Source: Hyphomonadaceae bacterium (lineage in GTDB: Bacteria; Pseudomonadota; Alphaproteobacteria; Caulobacterales; Aquidulcibacteraceae). Taken from it: a stretch of 64,000 nt of DNA. Where the stretch lies: positions 1 through 64,000 of the forward strand of contig JAKFWO010000001.1 of the NCBI GenBank assembly GCA_021731815.1, given 5' to 3'. The position numbers and the translations under genes were made by a program. The notes under the pieces are model-generated. The model had not been told where the DNA came from and did no database searches. It saw nothing but the letters and a program-made list of their open reading frames with translations. Positions 24,311-38,068 of the stretch are shown in pieces. Each line of letters opens with the position of its first letter. Positions within the stretch are counted from its first letter, which is position 1.

Positions 24311-24328
24311 GCGTCACGAAACTGTCTC
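24311..24328 (+). promoter_or_regulatory. Candidate PHO box upstream of pstC
   Basis: GCGTCAC-GAAA-CTGTCTC: two PhoB half-sites with the 4-base spacer of the PHO box (11-base period). The first matches the CTGTCAC consensus at 5 of 7 positions and the second at 6 of 7. It lies about 150 bases before the pstC start and suggests PhoB control of the pst-pho operon under phosphate limitation. Confidence 0.6.
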
Positions 24329-24474: not shown

Positions 24475-25866
24475 TTGGCGGCTTTATCCACATTCCCGGC
24501 TTTTTCCTGGGCCTTTTTGGCGCTGATCGGGTTGGCGATCGCCGGATTTGCTCTTGGCCAGGGCCGCGCGCGGCGGATCGGCAATGCCGCTTTGCACTCG
24601 CTTCCCGAATATCACGGGCAATTGGCCGCGTTGTGGATCGCCGGGCCGGGCCTTGCACTGACCCTGTTTTATGGTCTGTTCTCGGCACCCTTGATTGCGC
24701 TGCTGGTCGCGCGCGATTTGCCGGCGGAATTTGCGGCCCTGCCGCCACTGCTGCGCGACACGCTGATCGCCAATGCGGCTTCTGCCGCGGCCGGGGCACA
24801 ATTGTTGGATCCCTCGCCTCTGTTCGGGGACATTACCGACCGGTTCCGGCATTTGCGCGGGCTCGGGCACCTGTTGCTGGGGCTCGGAATCCTCGCTTGT
24901 GCGCTCGGCGGCATGCTGCTGACGCTGGCACGGCCTGCCGGGCCCCTGCGTGCCCGGCAAAAAGTTGAATCCGCGCTGAAATTCGGCTTGCTGTCCTGTT
25001 CGGGAATTGCCATCGCCACGACCATCGGCATCGTGTTTTCGCTGGTTGGGCCGACCGTCCGGTTTTTTTCCGCTTATTCGCCATGGGATTTCCTGACCGG
25101 GTTGAACTGGAGTCCCCAGACCGCGATCCGCGTCGATCAGGTGGGACAAACGGGCGGATTCGGCGCGGTCAAGCTGTTTTACGGCACTTTGGCCATTTCG
25201 GCGCTGGCGATGCTGGTGGCGGCCCCGATCGGATTGTTCGCGGCAATCTATCTCTCGGAATATGCGAGCCGGAATGTTCGTGCTTTCGTCAAGCCGGCAC
25301 TCGAGGTTCTCGCGGGGATTCCCTCCGTGGTGTACGGGTTCTTTGCGGCTTTCACGGTGGCACCGCTCATTCAGGCAGGAGCAGCGGCGCTCGGGCTCGC
25401 GGCGGCCCCCCAGAACATGCTGGCGGCCGGGATCGTCATGGGGATCATGATCATCCCGCTGGTCTCCTCGCTGTCGGATGATGTGATCAATGCGGTGCCC
25501 CAGGCGCTGCGCGACGGTTCCTATGCGCTCGGTTCCACCAAATCGGAGACCGTGCGAAATGTGATCTTTCCTGCCGCGCTTCCGGGGATTGTGGGGGCGC
25601 TGCTGCTCGCGGTATCGCGGGCGCTGGGCGAGACGATGATCGTGGCCATGGCGGCCGGACAGCGCGCCCAGCTCACCATCAACCCGCTCGATGAAGCCAC
25701 GACCGTCACGGTGTGGATCGTGGCCTTGTTGACCGGCGATCAGGAATTCAACAGCGTGAAGACCCTGTCCGCCTTCGCATTGGGCTTCGTGCTGTTCATC
25801 GTTACACTGATCCTCAACGTCATCGCGCTGCGGATCGTGCAAACCTTCCGGGAAAAATATGACTGA
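24475..25866 (+). CDS. pstC: Phosphate ABC transporter permease PstC (extended form)
   Basis: Inner-membrane permease of the high-affinity phosphate transporter. The C-terminal half (from about residue 215) is a standard PstC permease domain with SEYASRNVRAFVKPALEVLAG, GIPSVVYGFFA and the EAA-loop text GSYALGSTKSETVRNVIFPAA. The first 200 residues add two or three extra membrane segments and a periplasmic loop, the long PstC form I know from alphaproteobacteria. The start is a TTG at 24475 preceded by GAGGGG. It overlaps pstA by 8 bases. A PHO box lies upstream. Confidence 0.94.
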   Translation: MAALSTFPAFSWAFLALIGLAIAGFALGQGRARRIGNAALHSLPEYHGQLAALWIAGPGLALTLFYGLFSAPLIALLVARDLPAEFAALPPLLRDTLIANAASAAAGAQLLDPSPLFGDITDRFRHLRGLGHLLLGLGILACALGGMLLTLARPAGPLRARQKVESALKFGLLSCSGIAIATTIGIVFSLVGPTVRFFSAYSPWDFLTGLNWSPQTAIRVDQVGQTGGFGAVKLFYGTLAISALAMLVAAPIGLFAAIYLSEYASRNVRAFVKPALEVLAGIPSVVYGFFAAFTVAPLIQAGAAALGLAAAPQNMLAAGIVMGIMIIPLVSSLSDDVINAVPQALRDGSYALGSTKSETVRNVIFPAALPGIVGALLLAVSRALGETMIVAMAAGQRAQLTINPLDEATTVTVWIVALLTGDQEFNSVKTLSAFALGFVLFIVTLILNVIALRIVQTFREKYD

Positions 25867-27865
25867 GCCCGCCCGTCCGTCGGCCGAAATGACCGGCGGA
25901 GTTCCTTCCCGCGAGGCCAATGGCGCGCGTATCCGGCGACGGCGGCGGGAGGAGGCGCGCTTTCAGCTTTATGGGCGTCTCGCGGTCCTGACAGCCCTTG
26001 CGGCCCTGGCCGTCCTCGTCGTCTCGATCGCGCTTACTGCACGCACGGCCTTCTGGCAAAACCGTGTGACCCTCGATGTGACCCTCGCCGAATCGGCGGT
26101 CGATCCTTCGGGCAAGCGTGATCCCGAGGAAATCCGCTTTTCGGGCGATGTCATTGGCCCGACCTATGAAGCCCTCGGCCGCGTGCTGGCGGCGGGCGGC
26201 ACCAGCCCCTTGCCGCAGCGCTTTGCCCCGGATGTCGAGGCCCTGGTCACCGATCTGGCGACGACGCCTTTGCTCAAACAGGTGGTGGCCGATCCGGGCC
26301 TGATCGGCAAGACGATCCGGATCCGGGTGCCGATCAATGACGACATCGATCTCTATCTCAAGGGCGCGGGATTCAAGGCACAGCGAATGCGGGGGGATGC
26401 GGCTGCGACGCTGATCCTCACGGCTCCGGACACTGGCGGGGCCGCCGTGAGAATTCCGCCCGCGCCGCCGGAAGCGGCGGAAAGCGGGGAACCCGGGGAG
26501 GAACCCGGGGAGGAACCCGGTCTGGCGGCTGGGGTCGCGCCGGAACCATCGGCAATAACGGGCGGGACAGTCCCGGATGTGGCCGGGGAAGCGGAGGGCC
26601 GGGCGATCATCCTGTTCGAAGGCGATGCCCTGCGGAACTTCATGGGCCAATTGCGCGCGGAAATCGCGCGCGAAATCGCGATCAGGGAGCAGGAAACCGG
26701 TCGGCTCGATCAATTGGTCACGGCCGGGACGGGCGGCGGGACGGGCGTCGGAACGGAAGCAGAGCGCCTTGGCATTGCCGCCCGGATTGAATTGCTACGC
26801 CAGGAATCCGCCCTGTTACAGGCCGGGATCGACCCCGCCGCCAGCGCCGGCAGCAATACGCTCGCGCTCGGTGATGACCGGCCGAGCCTGATGATCGGTT
26901 TGCGGGGCGGCGTGGTGAAGGCCGAACGCGTCTCGGAAACCCGGATCGAAGGCATTATCGTCAAGCCATTCACCGACGCGCCGGCTCTGGATGCGGCCGT
27001 GGAAACCGGCGAATATTGGCTCTTGACCATCGCCTTGCCCCAGAACCAGCGCAAGCTGTCGGACGCGACAATCGTCTATGCCGGGGCCCTGCGCGACCAG
27101 GGCATCATCAAGGCAGGGTTCAATACCGGCTTTTTCACCCGGGCGGACAGCCGCGAGCCGGAGCTTGCGGGCATCCTTGCCGGCCTGATCGGTTCGTTTT
27201 TCACCATCCTTGTCTGCATGGTGGCAGCGGCACCGCTGGCAATCGGGGCGGCGATCTATCTCGAGGAATTTGCGCCCAAAAACCGGGTGACGGATTTTAT
27301 CGAGGTCAATATCAACAATCTCGCGGCGGTCCCGGCCATTGTCTATGGCCTGTTGGGGGCTGCCGTGTTTCTGGATTTCCTTGGCCGGCGCGTCGGGATT
27401 CCCAATCTCGCTCCCGGCCTGCCGCTGGTCGCTGGCCTTGTGCTGGCACTCCGGACATTGCCCACGATCATCATCGCCTCGCGCGCGGCGCTGAAATCCG
27501 TTCCGCCCTCCATCAGGGAAGCTGCACTCGGAATCGGGGCCTCGAAGATGCAGGCGGTGTTTCACCATGTCCTGCCTTTGGCGGCCCCCGGCGTGCTGAC
27601 CGGGGCCATTATCGGCATGGCGGGCGCGCTGGGCGAATCCGCCCCGCTCATTCTCATCGGCATGCAGGCCTTTGTCAGCCAGGCCCCGACCGGCATCGAT
27701 TCAGGCGCAACCGTGCTTCCGGTGCTGATCTATTCGTGGTCGGACCATCCCGAGCGCGCTTTCGCGCCGCTGACATCGGCGACCATTATCGTGCTTCTGG
27801 TCTTTCTGGTGCTGATGAACGGGCTGGCCGCCTTTGTGCGTCGCCGGTTCGAGCGCCGCTGGTAG
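25859..27865 (+). CDS. pstA: Phosphate ABC transporter permease PstA with large N-terminal domain
   Basis: Partner permease of PstC. The C-terminal 230 residues form the permease domain, with GILAGLIGSFFTILVCMVAA, NNLAAVPAIVYGLLG and the EAA loop REAALGIGASKMQAVFHHV. Residues 40-62 are a first membrane helix. Between it and the permease lies a loop of about 370 residues, as in DUF3333-type PstA, but the total of 668 residues is much longer than the roughly 420-450 usual for that form. The loop holds a Pro/Glu-rich repeat (EEPGEEPG, from 26489) and a Gly-rich stretch. The excess looks like repeat expansion in a periplasmic linker. The 8-base overlap with pstC indicates coupling. Confidence 0.93.
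   Translation: MTEPARPSAEMTGGVPSREANGARIRRRRREEARFQLYGRLAVLTALAALAVLVVSIALTARTAFWQNRVTLDVTLAESAVDPSGKRDPEEIRFSGDVIGPTYEALGRVLAAGGTSPLPQRFAPDVEALVTDLATTPLLKQVVADPGLIGKTIRIRVPINDDIDLYLKGAGFKAQRMRGDAAATLILTAPDTGGAAVRIPPAPPEAAESGEPGEEPGEEPGLAAGVAPEPSAITGGTVPDVAGEAEGRAIILFEGDALRNFMGQLRAEIAREIAIREQETGRLDQLVTAGTGGGTGVGTEAERLGIAARIELLRQESALLQAGIDPAASAGSNTLALGDDRPSLMIGLRGGVVKAERVSETRIEGIIVKPFTDAPALDAAVETGEYWLLTIALPQNQRKLSDATIVYAGALRDQGIIKAGFNTGFFTRADSREPELAGILAGLIGSFFTILVCMVAAAPLAIGAAIYLEEFAPKNRVTDFIEVNINNLAAVPAIVYGLLGAAVFLDFLGRRVGIPNLAPGLPLVAGLVLALRTLPTIIIASRAALKSVPPSIREAALGIGASKMQAVFHHVLPLAAPGVLTGAIIGMAGALGESAPLILIGMQAFVSQAPTGIDSGATVLPVLIYSWSDHPERAFAPLTSATIIVLLVFLVLMNGLAAFVRRRFERRW
26489..26520. repeat. 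12-bp in-frame tandem repeat within pstA
   Basis: Unit GAACCCGGGGAG at 26489-26500 and 26501-26512, with a partial third copy. It encodes GEEP repeats in the periplasmic loop of PstA and keeps the frame. Confidence 0.85.
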
Positions 27866-27940
27866 AATCCTGTTCCTGACCAATAATCGCCGCCGATACC
27901 GATATCTCCATTGCCCGAAATCTTCCGTGCCGGAGCCCCG

Positions 27941-28765
27941 ATGACCGCTCAATCCGCTGCCAATCCGAATTCCCCGCCCAATCCGCCGGCCGGTGCCCCG
28001 ATGGGTCCCGAGGTCAAGGTGCAGGCGCGCAATGTCAACGTCTTTTACGGCGACAAGCAGGCGCTGTTCGACGTGACGATGGACGTGCCCGACAAGAGTG
28101 TCACCGCCTTTATCGGTCCCTCGGGCTGCGGGAAATCCACGTTTTTGCGCAGCATCAACCGGATGAACGACACGATCGAGAATTGCCGATTCACCGGCAA
28201 TATCCAGATCAATGCGCGCGATATTTACGATCGCTCGGTGGATCCGGTGGTGTTGCGGGCCAGTGTCGGCATGGTGTTCCAGAAACCCAATCCCTTTCCC
28301 AAATCCATCTATGAGAATGTGGCCTATGGGCCGCGGATCCATAGCCTGGCGCGCACGCGGTCGGAAATGGATGCGATCGTGGAACGGAGCCTGATGCGCG
28401 CCGGCCTGTGGGGCGAGGTCAAGGATCGCCTCCACCAGCCGGGAACGGGCCTGTCGGGCGGGCAGCAGCAACGTCTGGTGATCGCGCGCGCCATCGCGGT
28501 CAGTCCCGAGATCATCCTGATGGACGAGCCCTGTTCGGCGCTCGATCCCATCGCGACCACGCGGGTCGAGGAACTGATCGGCGATCTCGCGCGGAATTTC
28601 TGCATCATCATCGTCACCCATTCCATGGCGCAGGCGGCGCGTGTTTCAAAACGCACGGCGTTTTTCCATCTGGGAAATCTGGTGGAAATGGGCCCGACCG
28701 AGGAAATCTTCACCAATCCGCGCGACAGCCGCACCCAGGATTACATTACCGGCCGATTCGGGTAG
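27941..28765 (+). CDS. pstB: Phosphate ABC transporter ATPase PstB
   Basis: Energises phosphate uptake and takes part in PhoR signalling. The start at 27941 has GGAG 6 bases upstream and gives 274 residues; a TTG at 27911 is less likely. Walker A is GPSGCGKST (59-67), the signature is [12 protein letters not shown], Walker B is [13 protein letters not shown] and the H-loop is [12 protein letters not shown]. The family text RINRMND-like ([13 protein letters not shown]) is present. It follows pstA by about 75 bases and precedes phoU by about 70. Confidence 0.97.
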
Positions 28766-28837: not shown

Positions 28838-29608
28838 ATGGATCTCACCAGCAAATCCTATGCCCATGACCTTGCGCAATTATCGCAGGCGGTTGCGCGC
28901 ATGGGGGGCCTGGCCGAAAGCCTTGTCGGGGACAGCCTGCACGCGGTGGCGCGCCGGGATTCCGAACTCGCCCAGACCGTGATCGCGCGCGATGCCAAGA
29001 TCGATCAATGCCAGCGCGAGATCGAACGCGAAGTCGTGCGCATCATCGCCTTGCGTCAACCGCTGGCACGCGATTTGCGTCAGACCATCGCCGCGCTGAA
29101 GCTTGCCACCGATCTCGAACGGATCGGCGACCTCGCCAGGAATATTGCGCGCCGGGCATTGTCGCTCAACCAGAGCGAGCCGCTCGTGATCATGCGCGGG
29201 GTCGAGCGCATGGGCCGCCTCGTGACCGCCCAGCTCAAACAAGTGCTGGATGCCTTCGCCTCCGACGAAGCTGCCGGGGCGATGGAGGTCTGGCAGCAGG
29301 ACGAGACTGTCGACGAGCTTTATAATTCCCTGTTCCGCGAGCTTCTGACCTATATGATCGAGGATCCGCGGCTGATCGGCCCTTGCGCGCATTTGCTGTT
29401 TGTTGCAAAGAACCTCGAACGGGTCGGCGATCATTGCACCAATATGGCAGAGGCATTGCATTACGTTATCACCGGCGAGGATTTGCCGGCGCAAAGGCCG
29501 CGATCATCTTCTGACACCGGGCCTGAAACCGGGCCTGAAACCGGCCTGGATTACAGAACGAACAACGGAAACGGGCAATCTCTGCCCGGGGATGCTCCAG
29601 GCGTCTGA
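28838..29608 (+). CDS. phoU: Phosphate signalling protein PhoU
   Basis: PhoU links the Pst transporter to the PhoR-PhoB two-component system and represses it when phosphate is plentiful. The product has two three-helix PhoU domains with metal-binding text of the E/DXXXD type: DAKIDQCQREIEREVVRI in the first and DETVDELYNSLFRELLTYM in the second. RIGDLARNIARRAL and RVGDHCTNMAEAL close each domain. The start has GAAGGA upstream. The last 30 residues after the second domain are unusual, carrying a TGPETGPET repeat encoded by a 12-bp tandem repeat. Confidence 0.96.
   Translation: MDLTSKSYAHDLAQLSQAVARMGGLAESLVGDSLHAVARRDSELAQTVIARDAKIDQCQREIEREVVRIIALRQPLARDLRQTIAALKLATDLERIGDLARNIARRALSLNQSEPLVIMRGVERMGRLVTAQLKQVLDAFASDEAAGAMEVWQQDETVDELYNSLFRELLTYMIEDPRLIGPCAHLLFVAKNLERVGDHCTNMAEALHYVITGEDLPAQRPRSSSDTGPETGPETGLDYRTNNGNGQSLPGDAPGV
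29517..29550. repeat. 12-bp in-frame tandem repeat at the 3' end of phoU
   Basis: Unit CCGGGCCTGAAA at 29517-29528 and 29529-29540, plus a shortened third copy. It encodes the TGPETGPETG tail of PhoU beyond the folded domain. Confidence 0.85.
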
Positions 29609-29678: not shown

Positions 29679-30392
29679 ATGGCATCCGCATATGTGCTCA
29701 TCGTCGAGGACGAGGATCCGATCGCCAAAATACTCGAATATAATTTCGAGAAGGAAGGCTATCGTACCGGCATCGCCCATGATGGCGAGGAAGCTCTTGT
29801 CATGGCGGCCGAGCAGCAGCCCGATCTGGTGATTCTCGACTGGACCCTGCCCAAGGTGACGGGGATCGAAGTGTGCCGGCGCCTGCGCGCGCGCCAGGCC
29901 AGCCGCAATATACCGATCATCATGCTCACCGCCCGGGCCGAGGAAGCCGATCTCCTGCGCGGGCTCGATCAGGGCGCGGATGATTACATCACCAAGCCCT
30001 TTTCGGTCGCCGCCGTGGTGGCGCGCGCCCGCGCCGTTTTGCGCCGTATCCGGCCGGGTCTGACCGAGGATCTGGTGACCATTGGCGATATCAGGATCGA
30101 CCGCAACGCCCACCGCGTCAAGCGCGGCGGCAAGGATGTGCATCTGGGGCCGACCGAGTTCCGCCTGCTCGATTATCTCATGCAGCATCCGGGCCGGGTG
30201 TTCTCGCGCGAGCAATTGCTGGACGCCGTCTGGGGTTCGGATGTCTATGTCGAGGTGCGCACCGTCGATGTTCATATCGGGCGCCTGCGCCGCGCGCTCA
30301 ATGTCGATGAAACCGGCCCCGACCCCATCCGCACCGTGCGCGCGGCGGGCTATTCGCTCGACACCGAAAGCATGGAAGCCGCAGCGGAGTGA
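29679..30392 (+). CDS. phoB: Phosphate response regulator PhoB
   Basis: OmpR/PhoB-type response regulator that activates the phosphate-starvation regulon at PHO boxes. The start at 29679 has a GAGAGG site and gives 237 residues. The receiver domain has the acidic pair in VEDEDP, phospho-acceptor D54 in LVILDWTLP, the threonine in MLTARAEE and the lysine in YITKPFS. The C-terminal winged helix has LGPTEFRLLDYLMQHPGRVF and VRTVDVHIGRLRRAL. The sensor kinase phoR is not in the operon here. Its TGA overlaps the GTG of the EAL gene. Confidence 0.96.
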   Translation: MASAYVLIVEDEDPIAKILEYNFEKEGYRTGIAHDGEEALVMAAEQQPDLVILDWTLPKVTGIEVCRRLRARQASRNIPIIMLTARAEEADLLRGLDQGADDYITKPFSVAAVVARARAVLRRIRPGLTEDLVTIGDIRIDRNAHRVKRGGKDVHLGPTEFRLLDYLMQHPGRVFSREQLLDAVWGSDVYVEVRTVDVHIGRLRRALNVDETGPDPIRTVRAAGYSLDTESMEAAAE

Positions 30393-31243
30393 GCACGGAC
30401 GATCTTTGGGCGTTCCCTGCGCGTGCCGGCCCGAGGTTTCCGGTGCCCGGCGATCCGATCGAAGCCTTATGGCCCGCGGGCAGCGAATTCGACCTCCATT
30501 ACCAACCGATTTTCCGGCTGTCCGACGGTGCCATCATCGGCGCAGAGGCGCTGGCCCGCTTTGCCGATGGAAATGGCGGGATGCAGGGGCCAAGCGAGCG
30601 TCAGATCGCCGGCCTGGCGGCGGGCCGAATCGATCCCTGGTATCGCCGCGCGCTCGGGGCCGCCTCCGGCCTCGCCGCCGCCTTGCGCCTTGCGGGGGCA
30701 GAGATTGCCGTGTCGGTCAATCTCGCGGCAGTTGATCTGCGCGACCCCGCTTTGCCGGATCTGGTGGCGCAGGCCTTTGCCGCCCATGAATTGCCGCCCG
30801 GTGCGCTCAAGATCGAGCTATTGGAAAGCGAGGCCATCACCAATCCTGCGGCGATGGCGGCTGTGTTCCGCACGCTTCAGGCGATCGGCGCGCGCATCGC
30901 GCTCGATGATTTCGGGGCCGGCCATTCCGCGCTGGCCTGGCTCGCGCATCTGCCGGCCGATGAGGTGAAGCTCGACCTTGCGTTTGCGCGCGGGCTCGCG
31001 CCGTCGGGCGGACGCCAGCGGCTTGTGGTGGGCGCGATGATCGGGCTCGCGCATGATCTGGGCATGCGCGTGACGGCGGAGGGGGTGGAGGATGCCGCCA
31101 CCGCTGGCGCCTTTGCCGAACTGGGCTGTGATTACGGGCAGGGCTTCCATTTCGCCCGCCCGATGGCAGCTTCGGATCTGCTTGCCCGCGTCACCGGGCC
31201 GCAGCGCGTCGCGGGCCTCGCCCCCGCCGGGCGGGAGGCCTGA
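30389..31243 (+). CDS. EAL-domain cyclic-di-GMP phosphodiesterase
   Basis: A stand-alone EAL protein of 284 residues predicted to hydrolyse c-di-GMP to pGpG. All key motifs are visible: GAEALARF (EAL at 53-55), SVNLAAVDL with the asparagine, IELLESEAI with the glutamate, ALDDFGAGHSAL with the metal-binding aspartate pair, DEVKLDLAF with the lysine, TAEGVED and YGQGFHFARP. There is no GGDEF domain, membrane segment or sensory domain, so it is probably cytoplasmic and active. It starts at a GTG inside the phoB stop (4-base overlap), so its expression is tied to phoB and presumably to phosphate starvation. Confidence 0.93.
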   Translation: MSTDDLWAFPARAGPRFPVPGDPIEALWPAGSEFDLHYQPIFRLSDGAIIGAEALARFADGNGGMQGPSERQIAGLAAGRIDPWYRRALGAASGLAAALRLAGAEIAVSVNLAAVDLRDPALPDLVAQAFAAHELPPGALKIELLESEAITNPAAMAAVFRTLQAIGARIALDDFGAGHSALAWLAHLPADEVKLDLAFARGLAPSGGRQRLVVGAMIGLAHDLGMRVTAEGVEDAATAGAFAELGCDYGQGFHFARPMAASDLLARVTGPQRVAGLAPAGREA

Positions 31244-31247
31244 GGCC

Positions 31248-33047
31248 TCATTCCTCGCCCGGCGGGAGTTTGGCGAGGTTTCGCCGCGCGATCTGCGCAT
31301 TCTGGCTCTCGCCGACCCCCATTTCTTCAAAGAGCGCGATGGCACGCCGATAGTTTTTCCGCGCAAGGGCAAGATCGCCGCGGGTCTCGGCGATCAGTCC
31401 GAGATTGGTGAGGCTCGCGGCCATGCCCTCCTTGCGTCCGAGCTGTTCATTGAGGGCGAAAGCGCGCTTCTGATAATCCTCGGCACCCGCAAGATCGCCG
31501 CGGGTCCGGGCGATCAGTCCGAGATTGCCGAGGGCCGCGGCCATGCCCTCTTTGCTGCCGAGCTGTTCATTGAGGGTGAAAGCGCGCTTGAGATAATCCT
31601 CGGCGCCCGCAAGATCGCCGCGGGTCCGGGCGATATTCCCGAGATTGCCGAGGGCCGCGGCCATGCCCTGTTTGCGTCCGAGCTGTTCATGGAGGGCGAA
31701 AGCGCGCTTCTGATAATCCTCGGCGCCAGCAAGATCGCCGCGGGTCTCGGCGATCACTCCGAGATTGCCGAGGTTTATGGCCATGCCCTCTTTGCGCCCG
31801 AGCTGTTCCTCGAGGGCGAAAGCGCGCTTCTGATAATCCTCGGCGCCCGCAAGATCGCCGCGGGTCCGGGCGATATTCCCGAGATTGCCGAGGTCAGCGG
31901 CCATGCCCTCTTTGCTTCCGAGCTGTTCATGAAGGGCGAAAGCGCGCTTCTGGTAATCCTCGGCGCCAGCAAGATCGCCGCGTGTGAAGGCGATAGTCCC
32001 GAGATTGCCGAGGGCAATGGCCATGCCCTCCTTGCGTCCGAGCTGTTCATGGAGGGCGAAAGCGCGCTTGTAATAATCCTCGGCACCAGCAAGATCGCCG
32101 CGTGTCCTGGCGATATTCCCGAGATTGGTGAGGGCATTGGCCATGCCCTCTCTGCTGCCGAGCTGTTCATTGAGGGCGAAAGCGCGCTTCTGGTAATCCT
32201 CGGCGCCAGCAAGATCGCCGCGTGTCCCGGCGATAATCCCGAGATTGCCGAGGGCAGCGGCCACCCAGCTTTGGTCCCCATTGGCCCCGGCGAGCACGGC
32301 TTTATAGGCATTCTCCGCCGCTGCGAGATCGCCAAGGCGCAGCAGCAAATGGCCGAGCGCATTGCGGGCGGAAAGATCGCCCGGCGCGAGGGCCAGGGCT
32401 TCCTCATAGGCTGCTTTGGCGGCATGGGTGTCGAACGGCGCGGTCAGCGCACCCAGCCGGCTATATTCCGCCGCGGCCTTTGCAGTCTGTTCGCGCGCCG
32501 CCGCCGCCCGGTCGCCGGCCAATTGGCTGAGGGCCTTGATCGCTGCATCGACATCGCCGCGGGCGAGATCTTCCAGCGCTTTTTCTGCCCGCGCATCGCC
32601 GGTTTTCAGGGTGTCGGCGGCGGCCTTTTCGAAGGCCTCCCTGGTGGAGGGGTCGAGCGGCGCGCCGCCCTGACCCTCGCGCGCCGCGAGAAGGGCATCG
32701 AGCTTGGCCTGCGTTTCGGAATGGCGGCGGTCGGCATCGGCCTTATCGCGCGCCGCGCGTTCCGCCGCCGCTTTCTCCTGCGCCGCGGCGCGCTGGTCGG
32801 ACGCTTCCTCTTGCTTTTTCGCCTCTGCCTCAAGATCGCGCCGCGTGGCGGGGTCGTCCTTGAAACGACAGCCAAGAAAACGAAGGATTCGCTTGGCCGT
32901 TTCCCAAATACCCGCCGTCGCGTGCAGCGAAGAGAAGGCGATCAGCGCGACAAAGCCGCAGGGCGCGGCCCAGGCAGGCAGCCATTCCGGCAGCGCTGCT
33001 TCATAGCGCGCCCAATATTCCGCCGCCGTTGTCAGCCACAATTCCAT
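31248..33047 (-). CDS. Tetratricopeptide-repeat protein with eight 40-residue repeats
   Basis: A 599-residue protein. Residues 1-50 hold a hydrophobic helix (PCGFVALIAFSSLHATA) that probably anchors it in the inner membrane. Residues 60-150 are a charged Ala/Glu/Lys-rich stretch likely to form a coiled coil. A few ordinary TPR units follow, then eight 40-residue kinesin-light-chain-type TPRs. Seven of these are almost identical (core TRGDLAGAEDYQKRAFAL) and one is divergent. The near identity extends to DNA, so the array arose by recent tandem duplication. It is probably a protein-binding scaffold with unknown partners. It lies opposite to the pho genes, between the EAL gene and pstS. Confidence 0.85.
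   Translation of the reverse strand: MELWLTTAAEYWARYEAALPEWLPAWAAPCGFVALIAFSSLHATAGIWETAKRILRFLGCRFKDDPATRRDLEAEAKKQEEASDQRAAAQEKAAAERAARDKADADRRHSETQAKLDALLAAREGQGGAPLDPSTREAFEKAAADTLKTGDARAEKALEDLARGDVDAAIKALSQLAGDRAAAAREQTAKAAAEYSRLGALTAPFDTHAAKAAYEEALALAPGDLSARNALGHLLLRLGDLAAAENAYKAVLAGANGDQSWVAAALGNLGIIAGTRGDLAGAEDYQKRAFALNEQLGSREGMANALTNLGNIARTRGDLAGAEDYYKRAFALHEQLGRKEGMAIALGNLGTIAFTRGDLAGAEDYQKRAFALHEQLGSKEGMAADLGNLGNIARTRGDLAGAEDYQKRAFALEEQLGRKEGMAINLGNLGVIAETRGDLAGAEDYQKRAFALHEQLGRKQGMAAALGNLGNIARTRGDLAGAEDYLKRAFTLNEQLGSKEGMAAALGNLGLIARTRGDLAGAEDYQKRAFALNEQLGRKEGMAASLTNLGLIAETRGDLALARKNYRRAIALFEEMGVGESQNAQIARRNLAKLPPGEE
31290..32249 (-). repeat. Array of eight 120-bp tandem repeats in the TPR gene
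   Basis: Eight consecutive 120-base units encode the 40-residue TPRs; the seven upstream ones are nearly identical and the last (31290-31409) is diverged. The period is exact and preserves the frame. Such arrays can change copy number by recombination. Confidence 0.93.
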
Positions 33048-33073
33048 ACCCGCCCCCCGATTCCGGCGATTCC

Positions 33074-33133
33074 AAACTGGTCTGGCCCCAACTGGTCTGG
33101 CCCAAATTAATCCGGCCGAAACTAGCCTGACAT
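33074..33133. repeat. Degenerate 15-bp repeats upstream of the TPR gene
   Basis: Two good copies of AACTGGTCTGGCCC and two decayed ones (AATTAATCCGGCC, AACTAGCCTGAC) run from about 33074. They lie between the divergent TPR and pstS genes. Confidence 0.6.
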
Positions 33134-33187
33134 TACGGTAAATTTATGTCACGCGCCAACTCCCGCGCCGCCGGCATTGTCGCTGAA

Positions 33188-33205
33188 CTGTCATGAAGCC
33201 GTCGC
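33188..33205 (+). promoter_or_regulatory. PHO box upstream of pstS
   Basis: CTGTCAT-GAAG-CCGTCGC: the first half-site is a perfect match to the PhoB consensus CTGTCAT, and the second matches 5 of 7 after the standard 4-base spacer. It is about 77 bases before the pstS start. It supports separate PhoB-activated transcription of pstS. Confidence 0.72.
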
Positions 33206-33281: not shown

Positions 33282-34328
33282 ATGCGCTGTCGTCTGCCGC
33301 TTTTGCTGCTCGTGCTCGGCCTGATCGGTGTGGCGTTCACGCCTTCGGCTTTCGCGGCACGCAACCAGATCCGGATCGTCGGGTCCTCGACCGTCTATCC
33401 TTTCACCACGTCGGTCGCCGAACATTTCGGGGCGCGATCGGGCCTCAGGGCACCTGTCGTCGATTCCACCGGCACGGGCGGCGGAATGCAGGCCTTTTGC
33501 GCCGGCCTCGGGGAAGCCTTTCCCGACCTCACCAATGCCTCGCGCCGCATGAAGAAATCGGAATTCGAAAATTGCCGCAAAAACGGCGTGCGCGAGATCG
33601 TCGAGATCCAGATCGGCTTTGACGGCGTGGCGATCGCCAATCGCAAGGGTGCGCCGCGCTTCGAGCTGACATTGCCGCAGCTCTTCCTCGCGCTCGGGGC
33701 CGAGGTGCCGGTCGCTGGCAGACTGGTGAAGAACCCCTATCGCAGATGGTCGCAGATCGCGCCCGGCCTGCCCGATATCCCGATCCTCGCTTTCGGGCCG
33801 CCGCCGACCTCCGGCACGCGCGATTCCTTTGTCGAACTGGGCCTCGATGCCGGCGCGCGCAGCTTTCCACTGCTCGCCGAATTGCGCAAGACGGATGAAA
33901 AGGCGTTCGAGGCCATCGCCCGCCGGCTGCGCGAGGACGGCGCCTGGACCGATGCCGGCGAAAACGACAATGCCATCGTCCAGCGTCTGTTGACCAATCC
34001 CAATGCGGTGGGCGTGTTCGGGCATTCGTTTCTGGAGGAAAATCTCGACCGCCTCCAGCCCGTGCCGATCGACGGGGTCAAGCCCGAGACCGATGCCATC
34101 GCGAACGGGGCCTATCCGCTGGCGCGCTCGATGTTCATCTATATGAAGCGCCAGCATGTGGGGGCCATTCCGGGCCTGCAACAATTTTTACGGCTCTATA
34201 CCTCGGACGGGATCATGGGCAGCAAGGGCGTGCTGGCCCGCAAGGGGCTGATCCCGCTTCTGCCGCCTTTGCTGGCGGCGCAGCAGGCGCGCGCCCGCGA
34301 CCTCATCCCGATGCAATCGCCGGAATAG
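33282..34328 (+). CDS. pstS: Phosphate-binding periplasmic protein PstS
   Basis: Periplasmic substrate-binding protein for the PstCAB transporter. A signal peptide ends near residue 26 (FTPSAFA). Phosphate-site segments are IRIVGSSTVYPFTTSVAE, VDSTGTGGGMQAFCAG and PPTSGTRDSFVEL, all standard for this family. It is 348 residues long. Unlike the usual pstSCAB order it is separated from pstCAB by about 5.4 kb, downstream of phoB, the EAL gene and the reverse TPR gene. It has its own PHO box and so its own promoter. Confidence 0.94.
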   Translation: MRCRLPLLLLVLGLIGVAFTPSAFAARNQIRIVGSSTVYPFTTSVAEHFGARSGLRAPVVDSTGTGGGMQAFCAGLGEAFPDLTNASRRMKKSEFENCRKNGVREIVEIQIGFDGVAIANRKGAPRFELTLPQLFLALGAEVPVAGRLVKNPYRRWSQIAPGLPDIPILAFGPPPTSGTRDSFVELGLDAGARSFPLLAELRKTDEKAFEAIARRLREDGAWTDAGENDNAIVQRLLTNPNAVGVFGHSFLEENLDRLQPVPIDGVKPETDAIANGAYPLARSMFIYMKRQHVGAIPGLQQFLRLYTSDGIMGSKGVLARKGLIPLLPPLLAAQQARARDLIPMQSPE

Positions 34329-34494: not shown

Positions 34495-34597
34495 AAAATC
34501 ATTGCGAATCGTTGTCGAGGCCATGTAGGGGGTCTGCGCAGAGAGGGGTCGACTGCACAGGCAGGGTGACCCATTGATCGGGCAACAGGGGATAATC

Positions 34598-37500
34598 ATG
34601 AATATGCGGAATTTCTGGTCCACCGGGGCAGCGGCCCTGGCCATGATGGCGGCCGCGACGCCGGTTCTGGCGCAGCAATCGACGGGCGATATTCGTGGCT
34701 CGGTGCTCGACCAGTCCGGCAATCCGGTTGCCGGCGCGGATGTCGTCATCGTCCATGTCCCCAGCGGCACCCGCAGCCAATTGTCATCGAACAATGCCGG
34801 TGCCTTTGTGGCGTCCGGCCTGCGGGTTGGCGGTCCCTATGAGATTGAGGTTTCCGCACCGAGTTACGAGCGCATCAGCGCCCAGGATCTGTTTGTCAGC
34901 CTTGGTGACGTGTTCCGCGTGAATTTCCAGCTTGTCGAGGAGACCGCGGTCGAGGAAATCGTCGTGGTCGGTGATCGCGCGGGTAGCGCTTCCGGCTTTT
35001 CGGTCGGCAATCGCGTCAATCAGGACCGGATCGAGGGCGTCTCTTCGGTCAACCGCGATTTGCGCGACATCGTGCGCCGCAACCCGCTGGCGACGTTGAA
35101 TGTCGGCGGCGACCGCGGCATTTCGATTGCGGGCTCGATCCCGCGCGCCAACCGCATCACCATTGATGGCGTGCGCGCCCAGGACGATTTCGGCCTCAAT
35201 ACCGGCGGCCTGCCAACGGTTCGCGGCCCGATCTCGCTCGACGCGATCGAGCAGGTTTCGGTGAATGTCGCGGAATTCGACCCCGAACAGGGCGATTTCA
35301 CCGGCGGTTCGATCGCAGTGACCCACAAGAGCGGCACCAACAAGATCGAGGGCTCCGGGTTCTGGCAGACCAACCGGGAATTCCTCGACGGCGACACGGT
35401 CGATGGCCGCCCGGTCAACAACCAGTTCCGCGGCCGCGATTTCGGCGGGTTCATCGGCGCGCCCCTCATCAAGGACCGGTTGTTCATTGCCGGTTCCTAT
35501 GAATCCTTCGAACAAACAGCCGCCGTGGCCGGCGGTCCGGCGGCGACGACCCCGGGCGACATCGCGTTTTCCAATCCCTCGACCCTCAGCGCCACGGCAT
35601 TCAATGCGCTCGGTCAAACCCTGCAATCGCTCTATGGCTTTGCGCCGCTCGGCGTTCCGGCAACCACCCCGATCACGGACCGCAAATGGTCGGCGCGGCT
35701 CGACTGGAACATCACGGATGACCACCACGCCCAGTTCACCTATCGCGCCTCGCGCGGGTCGCAGGCCGCCAATGTGAATGGTGGCGGGCTGAATTTCGGT
35801 GATTCCTCGACCTTTTACGTTCAGGGCGAGCGCGAGAACACCTTTGCCGGCCAGATCAATTCGAACTGGACCAGCGATTTCTCGACCGAATTGCGGATCA
35901 CGCGCCGCAATTATCTGCGCGAACAAAATCCCTTCGGCGACATCAATAATGCGGCAGGCACACCCGAGGCCGATGCCGAGGAATTCGCCGAAGTCCGGGT
36001 CTGCTCGTCGGCGACTTCCGGCTTCAGCGCCACCTCGTGCCAGGCGGTCGGCACCAATGTTGCCGCGCCGCAGGTCATTTTCGGCCCCGACCAGTTCCGC
36101 CATGCCAATCAATTGCGCACAGGCAACACCTCCTATCATTTCAAGGGGCAATATCTCCTCGGCAACCATACGATCAAGGCGGGCTTCCAGCGCCAGGGCA
36201 AGGAGATCGACAATCTCTTCGTCCCGCAATCGGAAGGCGTTTTCTACTTTGACTCGGCGGCGGATTTTGCGGCTGGTCGCGCCAATCAGCTGATCTATCA
36301 GAACACCCTGACCGGCAATCCCGATGCCGATGGCCGCGGGGTCTTTGATTATGCGATCAATTCCTGGTTCGTGAACGACACCTGGGATGTGGCGAGCTGG
36401 CTGACCCTTTCGCTCGGTCTGCGCTATGATCGTTATGCCTCCGGCGATGCGCCGACGGCCAATCAGGCCTTTGCCAATCGCTATGCAGCGCTCGGGCTGA
36501 CCAATACGGAATTTCTCGACGGTCGCGATGTGTTCTCCCCGCGATTCGGCTTCAAGGCAGATCTGCCCTTCGGAATTGATGCGCGCGGCGGGATCGGCAA
36601 ATTCGCCTCGACCGTATCAGACGTGTTCCTGTCGAATGCCTTCTCCAATGACGGTGCGCGCTTCAACACGATCACCATCACCCGCAGCGGTGCGCCGGGC
36701 GCGGCCAATGAGTTTGCGATTTCGCCGGCAACGGCGGGCTTTTCCCAGGCTTTGGGTGCCCAGGCGCTGACGCTGACACGGAATGCACAAGGCCAATTCG
36801 ACCTGTTCAACATCCCGCCGGCGATCCAGACCCTGCTGGCCGGTGGCGGCGCGCCGCTGGCCGCTCCGACCTATTCCTTCGATCCCAATTTCGAGATCCC
36901 TGCGGAATGGAAGGCCAATCTCAACCTGTCGCGAACTTTCAGTCTGCCCTTCGTGGAAAATATCCGCGCCGGTTTCGATCTGGTGTTCGGCGTGACCCAG
37001 CAAGGCTATACGTTCCGGGATCTGCGGGCGAGCCTGGACGGGACCCTGCCCGATGGTCGCCCGCGTTATATCGGTGACAACGCGCTCACGCCGGTTCTCG
37101 ACCGGGCGATCTCGCGTGCGATTGGAAACACCGATGCCAACACAGACATTCAGGCGACCAATACCCAAAGCGGCAATTCGCGTGTCTGGGCGGCAAGCCT
37201 CGGAAAAAGCTGGGATTTCGGGCTGGACATCAATGTGTCCTACGCCCGTCAGGAAGTGAATACGGTAATCGACGGCGCGCGCTTTGGTTCCACCCCCAAC
37301 GGGGTATTTACCGGGACGGCGGCGCGCGACCTCAACAACCCAGAGCTCGGCACCAGCAGTGAAGAAGTCAAGAACGCCCTGAAATATGAGTTCAATTTCG
37401 AGCGCAGCTTCTTCAAGGGCCTCAAGAGCCGCCTCACCATCTTTGGCGAGCGCCGCTCGGGTCGTCCGTTCAGCTATACGTTCAACGACAACACACCCAG

Positions 37501-38068
37501 CCAAACCGGCCGTTCCACAGTGTTTGGCATTACCGGCGGCAATCGGTCGCTGTTCTACGTTCCGAATTTCGCGGGCGACACCAATCCCAACGATCTCCAG
37601 ACCGATTTCGTGTTCTTTGATACCGCCGCAACGCGGGATTCACTGCGCGATTTCGTGCTCAATGGGCCGCTTGCCAATTTCCAGGGACAGATCACGCCGC
37701 GCAATGCCTTCCGCAACCCGGCCGTCAACCGGATCGATCTGAAATTCGCCCAGGAAATTCCGTGGTTCTTCGGCCACAAGCCCGAGGCCTTTATCGAAAT
37801 CGACAATTTCCTGAACTTCCTCAACTCCAATTGGGGTGTGGTGCGGGAATTTGCCACCAATACGCGCGTCGTCGATGTGTTGTGCGCGGACGCAACGGGC
37901 GCGGTGGCGGCCAACACCACGTCGGCGCAGAACAATCTCTGCACCAATTTCCGGTTTCAGAGTGTGAATTTCCAGACCAATCCCCTGACGACCGACCTCG
38001 ATACGGTGGGCGTCAACCCCAACCAGTCGCGCTGGACGGCGCAGATCGGCCTGCGTTACCGCTTCTGA
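34598..38068 (+). CDS. TonB-dependent outer-membrane receptor with carboxypeptidase-like N-terminal domain
   Basis: An outer-membrane active-transport receptor of 1156 residues. The start at 34598 has AGGGG upstream and a signal peptide ending TPVLAQQ (about residue 27). Residues 29-112 form a carboxypeptidase-regulatory-like domain (GDIRGSVLDQSGNPVAGADV). The TonB box is EEIVVVGD (119-126). The plug holds IDGVRAQDDFG, and the large beta-barrel ends in LRYRF with a terminal aromatic. Receptors of this Oar-like type in oligotrophic alphaproteobacteria import varied ligands. Its place behind pstS and a weak PHO box suggests phosphate or phosphorylated compounds, which is inference. A strong terminator follows. 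Confidence 0.9.
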   Translation: MNMRNFWSTGAAALAMMAAATPVLAQQSTGDIRGSVLDQSGNPVAGADVVIVHVPSGTRSQLSSNNAGAFVASGLRVGGPYEIEVSAPSYERISAQDLFVSLGDVFRVNFQLVEETAVEEIVVVGDRAGSASGFSVGNRVNQDRIEGVSSVNRDLRDIVRRNPLATLNVGGDRGISIAGSIPRANRITIDGVRAQDDFGLNTGGLPTVRGPISLDAIEQVSVNVAEFDPEQGDFTGGSIAVTHKSGTNKIEGSGFWQTNREFLDGDTVDGRPVNNQFRGRDFGGFIGAPLIKDRLFIAGSYESFEQTAAVAGGPAATTPGDIAFSNPSTLSATAFNALGQTLQSLYGFAPLGVPATTPITDRKWSARLDWNITDDHHAQFTYRASRGSQAANVNGGGLNFGDSSTFYVQGERENTFAGQINSNWTSDFSTELRITRRNYLREQNPFGDINNAAGTPEADAEEFAEVRVCSSATSGFSATSCQAVGTNVAAPQVIFGPDQFRHANQLRTGNTSYHFKGQYLLGNHTIKAGFQRQGKEIDNLFVPQSEGVFYFDSAADFAAGRANQLIYQNTLTGNPDADGRGVFDYAINSWFVNDTWDVASWLTLSLGLRYDRYASGDAPTANQAFANRYAALGLTNTEFLDGRDVFSPRFGFKADLPFGIDARGGIGKFASTVSDVFLSNAFSNDGARFNTITITRSGAPGAANEFAISPATAGFSQALGAQALTLTRNAQGQFDLFNIPPAIQTLLAGGGAPLAAPTYSFDPNFEIPAEWKANLNLSRTFSLPFVENIRAGFDLVFGVTQQGYTFRDLRASLDGTLPDGRPRYIGDNALTPVLDRAISRAIGNTDANTDIQATNTQSGNSRVWAASLGKSWDFGLDINVSYARQEVNTVIDGARFGSTPNGVFTGTAARDLNNPELGTSSEEVKNALKYEFNFERSFFKGLKSRLTIFGERRSGRPFSYTFNDNTPSQTGRSTVFGITGGNRSLFYVPNFAGDTNPNDLQTDFVFFDTAATRDSLRDFVLNGPLANFQGQITPRNAFRNPAVNRIDLKFAQEIPWFFGHKPEAFIEIDNFLNFLNSNWGVVREFATNTRVVDVLCADATGAVAANTTSAQNNLCTNFRFQSVNFQTNPLTTDLDTVGVNPNQSRWTAQIGLRYRF

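Follow-up and report, generated by a model that had tools for sequence, protein, structure and literature searches.

A gene for a presumed c-di-GMP phosphodiesterase, consisting of a complete EAL domain and no other, directly follows phoB in a Hyphomonadaceae bacterium, in a 64,000-nucleotide stretch of DNA referred to here as the window. The protein looks like a member of the clade of PdeA (CC3396) of Caulobacter crescentus, and its gene stands last in a predicted pstC-pstA-pstB-phoU-phoB-EAL operon (Table 1). We propose, with about even confidence, that this EAL-only phosphodiesterase of PdeA stock would, by its place in the operon, link phosphate starvation to lower c-di-GMP. That a PdeA-clade enzyme was rewired in this lineage is a better founded reading than a conserved, hard-wired coupling, since EAL follows phoB in none of the 91 relatives read and the arrangement is private to the lineage as far as these genomes go.

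Table 1. Features in and around the pst-pho operon of the window
Feature	Position	Strand	Evidence
Pho-box-like direct repeat, weak, upstream of pstC	24311-24328	+	11/14
pstC, phosphate permease, first gene of the operon	24475-25866	+	TIGR02138, 282 bits (cut-off 196.45)
pstA, phosphate permease, 8-base overlap with pstC	25859-27865	+	TIGR00974, 193.4 bits, just below the cut-off of 193.45
pstB, ATPase	27911-28765	+	ORF, position, ABC signature LSGGQQQR in the translation
phoU	28838-29608	+	PF01895, 164.9 bits
phoB, response regulator	29679-30392	+	ATG 29679, TGA 30390-30392; TIGR02154, 330.6 bits (cut-off 296.2)
GTGA overlap of the EAL start (GTG) with the phoB stop (TGA)	30389-30392	+	sequence
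EAL-only presumed c-di-GMP phosphodiesterase, PdeA clade	30389-31243	+	PF00563, PDB matches, tree
TPR-repeat gene, convergent	31248-33047	-	PF13424, 195.5 bits; end 4 bases beyond the EAL stop
Pho-box-like triple repeat, best in the window, upstream of pstS	33177-33205	+	17/21
pstS-like phosphate-binding protein, apart from the operon	33282-34328	+	PF12849, 126.4 bits; TIGR02136, 126.4, below the cut-off of 206.6

The phoB/EAL junction and the EAL-only protein

The six genes from pstC to the EAL gene are co-directional, with successive gaps of -8, 45, 72, 70, and -4 bases, and their position and overlap support a single operon. An initial sequence-only reading had placed the EAL start within the phoB stop codon, and this was borne out: the earliest start available to the EAL frame is a GTG that shares the four bases GTGA with the end of phoB. 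The same reading saw in the junction a translational coupling of the two genes. The overlap and the operon by position stand in its favor, but 4-base start/stop overlaps are frequent in bacterial operons, so the GTGA is ordinary operon evidence and no sign of a special coupling. At the end of phoB we detected no good Pho-box-like site for an EAL promoter of its own (the best scored 8/14), and no sigma-70-like match was found just upstream of the EAL gene.

The predicted product is 284 aa long and has a single Pfam match, the EAL domain at residues 32-258 (PF00563, 175.7 bits against a cut-off of 31.3), which agrees with the earlier claim that no other domain is present. An AlphaFold2 model has the EAL fold with a mean pLDDT of 81.9, nearly all of residues 1-31 falling below 50, and it superimposes on the PdeA structure 3u2e with a Z-score of 31.2 and an rmsd of 2.3 over 249 residues. 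Residues E53, R57, N111, E143, E146, D173, D174, K194, E231, E234, and Q251 are each either fully conserved or retained in no less than 90% of rows in two alignments (A1 and A2). We take these to be the catalytic residues of the EAL literature, with the metal- and substrate-binding and loop-6 glutamate roles presumably distributed among all of them except R57; the expected catalytic set was complete, as had been claimed. The gene is accordingly annotated as a complete EAL and a presumed c-di-GMP phosphodiesterase.

Several features of the surrounding DNA were observed alongside. The protein of the convergent TPR-repeat gene contains, by eye, seven copies of RGDLAGAEDY and one diverged copy at a spacing of ~40 residues, and a long open frame (31092-33110) runs antisense to this gene. 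Straight after pstS lies a 1164-aa ORF (34574-38068) that by eye resembles a TonB-type outer-membrane receptor and may have a role in the uptake of a phosphate compound.

Gene order after phoB and the pdeA locus in relatives

The first reading had regarded the phoB-EAL pair as hard-wired and suggested a survey of phoB neighbors in related genomes. We searched 100 relatives, none of the window's genus, of which 93 gave a phoB match at 1e-60 and 7, including G011 and G025, did not. The region after phoB was read in 91 of the 93, leaving out G049, where phoB is truncated by the contig end, and G062, where the match is 50% identical and probably another regulator. The next ORF after phoB was an EAL in none of the 91, ORFs here being mechanical readings of at least 90 aa and not annotated genes; these readings do not support the order as a general, hard-wired arrangement. 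Searching with the window EAL by tblastn likewise placed no EAL after phoB in 89 relatives, in all of which phoU adjoins phoB upstream, and found no EAL segment longer than 180 residues at the phoB loci of G077 and G082 (L208 and L209). Counting the window's own locus, the next ORF was convergent in 70 of 92 loci and co-directional in 21, the window's own among them, with none in range in one. A co-directional ORF begins within 40 bases of phoB in L041, L165, and L174, none of them an EAL. Less than 1.1 kb follows phoB in five of the regions (L052, 299 bases; L151, 366; L053, 1007; L141, 1028; L061, 1060). In a further named genome, Hirschia (L264), a minus-strand ORF follows phoB. A scan of named genomes, from which the window's own genome was possibly excluded, returned 54 EAL loci of at most 43% identity, and above 35% identity a phoB match accompanied four of these (36-41%) while no phoU match was returned. 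As a separate observation, the convergent ORF after phoB reads as resembling the cell-cycle regulator GcrA in nine relatives (L134, L139, L140, L144, L163, L164, L168, L170, and L181).

The EAL genes that most resemble the window gene are found elsewhere, in a neighborhood of thrC, an M16 peptidase, a GNAT acetyltransferase, the EAL gene, YqgE/AlgH, and a peroxiredoxin (Prx) that is conserved and was seen in five families of the order (f1-f5). We assigned an EAL gene to this pdeA locus if at least one of thrC, M16, GNAT, YqgE, and Prx lay within 3.5 kb. When 398 genomes of the order were searched, the best 30 EAL-match loci were the window's own and 29 from relatives, and all 29 had a locus partner nearby, though many come from one genus (g23) and so do not count as independent cases. 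The earlier search, of 100 relatives, gave 29 best-match loci, 12 of them at the pdeA locus. Among relative loci that were fetched, 7 from the window's family and 11 from other families, at least one locus partner was present in 18 of 18, a set picked as short EAL ORFs or high matches and so not a random sample; a nineteenth pick on the same criterion, G047 (L196), was not at the pdeA locus.

The domain content of the locus gene varies across the order. In the Caulobacter-like genome G200 (L241), whose membership in the window's order suggests that this is the order of Caulobacter, it encodes 555 aa with PAS_PdeA (PF21815), GGDEF, and EAL domains by Pfam, and it is ~93% identical over 318 residues, by a count made by eye, to PDB entry 4hjf, which is titled PdeA, as are 3u2e and 3s83. 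The locus gene of G011, from the window's family, encodes a GGDEF-EAL protein of 618 aa; four f2 genomes have ORFs of 341-443 aa with an EAL and an N-terminal part, the latter without a Pfam match in the two that were scanned; and the ORF of the f5 genome G202 is 702 aa long. EAL-only locus genes were found by Pfam in G008 and the f3 genome G180, and by ORF length in G001, G013, and G025; at the level of loci, the single domain was read by Pfam for L193 and L247 and from ORF length for the others. Arranged side by side, L241, L197, L240, and L193 run from PAS-GGDEF-EAL via GGDEF-EAL and N-terminal part plus EAL to EAL only. This variation suggests that the control domains of PdeA were lost repeatedly across the order. 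The window protein itself is similar to the reduced forms, as represented by the EAL-only genes of G008 (L193) and G013 (L191), which belong to the same clade and encode ~250-280 aa. Those genes, however, adjoin locus genes such as GNAT, whereas the window gene adjoins phoB.

Kinship with PdeA and rival explanations

A sequence search of the PDB with the window protein gave the PdeA EAL structures 3s83, 3u2e, and 4hjf as best matches (E values of 2.1e-41 to 4.7e-41, the next match being at 2.5e-33). In the structure search, 3u2e ranked first, but its Z-score was tied with those for BifA (30.9) and MucR (30.6); PdeA is thus not distinguished on structural grounds. To place the protein, we built trees from tblastn segments that align with more than 195 query residues of the window EAL, one per locus, with identical segments entered once, re-fetched copies omitted, stops converted to X, and the window row trimmed to its EAL part. 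A quick tree of 116 rows separated locus from other EALs with a branch support of 90, but the split was not clean, with the locus rows L080 and L086 outside and the non-locus row L119 inside. A careful tree was then made from 82 rows. The 34 rows removed for it, L119 being one, comprised rows with long branches or an odd composition, near-copies, and a number of distant named ones. Here the split was clean: the smallest well-supported set that contains the window protein has 33 rows, the protein and all 32 locus rows, against 49 others, with support of 96/96, a grouping with PdeA that the first reading had missed. The window branch is long (1.01), and the protein may be either sister to the locus rows or nested among them. 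Identity of the window EAL to pdeA-locus genes is 33-46%, and 44% at best in the careful-tree set. Among eight family genomes with a locus EAL, that EAL is the genome's best match to the window EAL in five (G007, G011, G013, G016, and G025) and is not in G001, G008, and G015.

In the window's own genome, the locus partners are scattered: the M16 peptidase (47% identity) is on contig C25, thrC (48%) on C31, and YqgE (50%) on C18, and no EAL or other locus partner was found near them in the three regions read. Each has other neighbors, and the separation is thus more than an effect of contig breaks. The phoR orthologue is likewise detached from the pst operon, on contig C4 (L201:2282-4052); over 375 residues it shares 45% identity with the kinase preceding pstC in G004. 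Together, the dispersal of thrC, M16, and YqgE and the displacement of phoR indicate that the pdeA cluster was rearranged in this lineage, as was the pho operon, and we infer that the EAL gene was relocated from the pdeA locus rather than lost and gained separately.

The genome has three EAL matches. Besides the window gene, there is a GGDEF-EAL protein encoded on C11 and, on C14 (L207:4237-5484), a protein that we call TipF-like by resemblance, with EGF in place of EAL and a substitution of the second aspartate; this last protein yielded no tblastn segment of the required length and is in neither tree. Two EALs, those of the window gene and C11, are therefore catalytic-looking. No HD-GYP match was found in the genome, with a model that gives a match in 4 of 14 controls. 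With four GGDEF matches, one of them within the C11 protein, and three flagellin matches, c-di-GMP signaling and flagella both seem to be present.

The same rearrangements mean that the placement of the EAL gene may be an accident, an active PdeA-clade phosphodiesterase having landed behind phoB, where basal expression was useful, with no selected link to phosphate. We regard this as a serious rival and a real, if doubtful, possibility. It is favored by the restriction of the phoB-EAL order to one genome, by the scattering of the cluster among other neighbors and the absence of phoR from its place before pstC as in G004, and by the weakness of the Pho box before pstC; the 4-base overlap and the tight packing, on the other hand, suggest a settled operon, and the active site is intact where the genome's phosphodiesterases are few. 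It is unlikely that the gene is instead an unrelated EAL from outside the PdeA clade, gained by transfer. The long end branch, the modest identity, the non-locus best matches in three of the eight family genomes, and the unclean quick tree would fit such a gain, as would a total GC of 0.696, the highest of ten genes compared; but its GC3 of 0.772 resembles that of its nine neighbors (0.715-0.805), the careful tree groups the protein with every pdeA-locus row, and no EAL remains with the scattered locus genes in its own genome. A non-catalytic c-di-GMP receptor is very improbable, for although inactive EAL proteins such as TipF are described in the excerpts available of one report (PMC3764195) and the loop reads AGHSAL where TGYSSL is common, the protein has the loop-6 glutamate together with the expected active-site residues, and the GHS..WL form of the loop recurs in four of the eight locus rows of A1 (L193, L239, L240, and L247).

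A candidate link between phosphate and c-di-GMP

In the proposed link from phosphate starvation to c-di-GMP, the EAL protein would be made together with PhoB through co-transcription and the GTGA overlap; phosphate starvation, acting via PhoR and PhoB on the operon, would raise its amount; more of the protein would lower c-di-GMP; and lower c-di-GMP would favor a motile, unattached state. The weakest links are phosphate induction and the physiological outcome. With 14 Pho-box-like sites scoring 11/14 or better in the whole window, the repeat upstream of pstC is not significant alone; its counterpart before pstC in G004 scores 12/14, and a 13/14 repeat lies ~200 bases upstream of the displaced phoR on C4.

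The PAS domain of PdeA is involved in proteolysis, and the degenerate GGDEF domain of the protein binds GTP. According to the portions available of the reports cited, PdeA keeps c-di-GMP low in Caulobacter swarmer cells and is removed at G1-S by CpdR-dependent ClpXP (PMC3764195, PMC8973945, PMC11519897), and GTP stimulates it (PMC11082216). The window protein shares with PdeA an EAL of the same clade and a presumed hydrolysis of c-di-GMP but lacks both PAS_PdeA and GGDEF in the Pfam scan, and its gene lies behind phoB instead of at the thrC-M16-GNAT-YqgE-Prx locus. Without these domains, it should lack GTP stimulation and domain-dependent cell-cycle proteolysis, and its control would be mainly by the amount made. 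More tentatively, and as a possibility we consider doubtful, a PdeA-type enzyme may have shed the domains that face GTP and the protease and come under the phosphate regulator, so that phosphate sets the motile-to-sessile decision by way of a single operon, where the genome has only two catalytic-looking EALs.

Phosphate control of c-di-GMP breakdown is known in kind. In Pseudomonas fluorescens Pf0-1, excerpts of PMC3032545 describe RapA as a phosphodiesterase that PhoB turns on when phosphate is low and whose action reduces c-di-GMP; rapA has its own upstream Pho box, with no mention there of a tie to a phoB operon, whereas the window EAL sits in the phoB operon, and the two are likened by description, in their proposed working. 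Phosphate limitation and PhoB also modify the c-di-GMP pool in Vibrio cholerae, again a likeness by description from other bacteria, and the part of that report available mentions no phoB-EAL operon (PMC4741415). It is plausible that phosphate shortage would lower c-di-GMP in the window's organism, with effects on motility or biofilm. Starving Caulobacter of phosphate up-regulates a cyclase and favors stalked cells, and the authors of that study state that phosphate starvation had not been firmly tied to c-di-GMP there; the direction of the phosphate effect may thus be opposite to the one proposed here (PMC10723716). We found no report of an EAL downstream of phoB in connection with c-di-GMP in the open-licence literature, where absence is weak evidence; the wiring of an EAL into a phoB operon is new, in one genome.

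Should the placement be a rearrangement accident, it would matter little. If the proposed link holds, a PdeA-clade enzyme in the phoB operon would give the connection between phosphate and c-di-GMP a concrete genetic form, in a direction opposite to the cyclase up-regulation described for Caulobacter in the available part of PMC10723716, and a cell-cycle enzyme governed elsewhere by proteolysis and GTP would have come to be governed by its place in an operon. As a kind of gene it is nothing unusual, and it is its new place that makes a link from phosphate to lifestyle directly testable.
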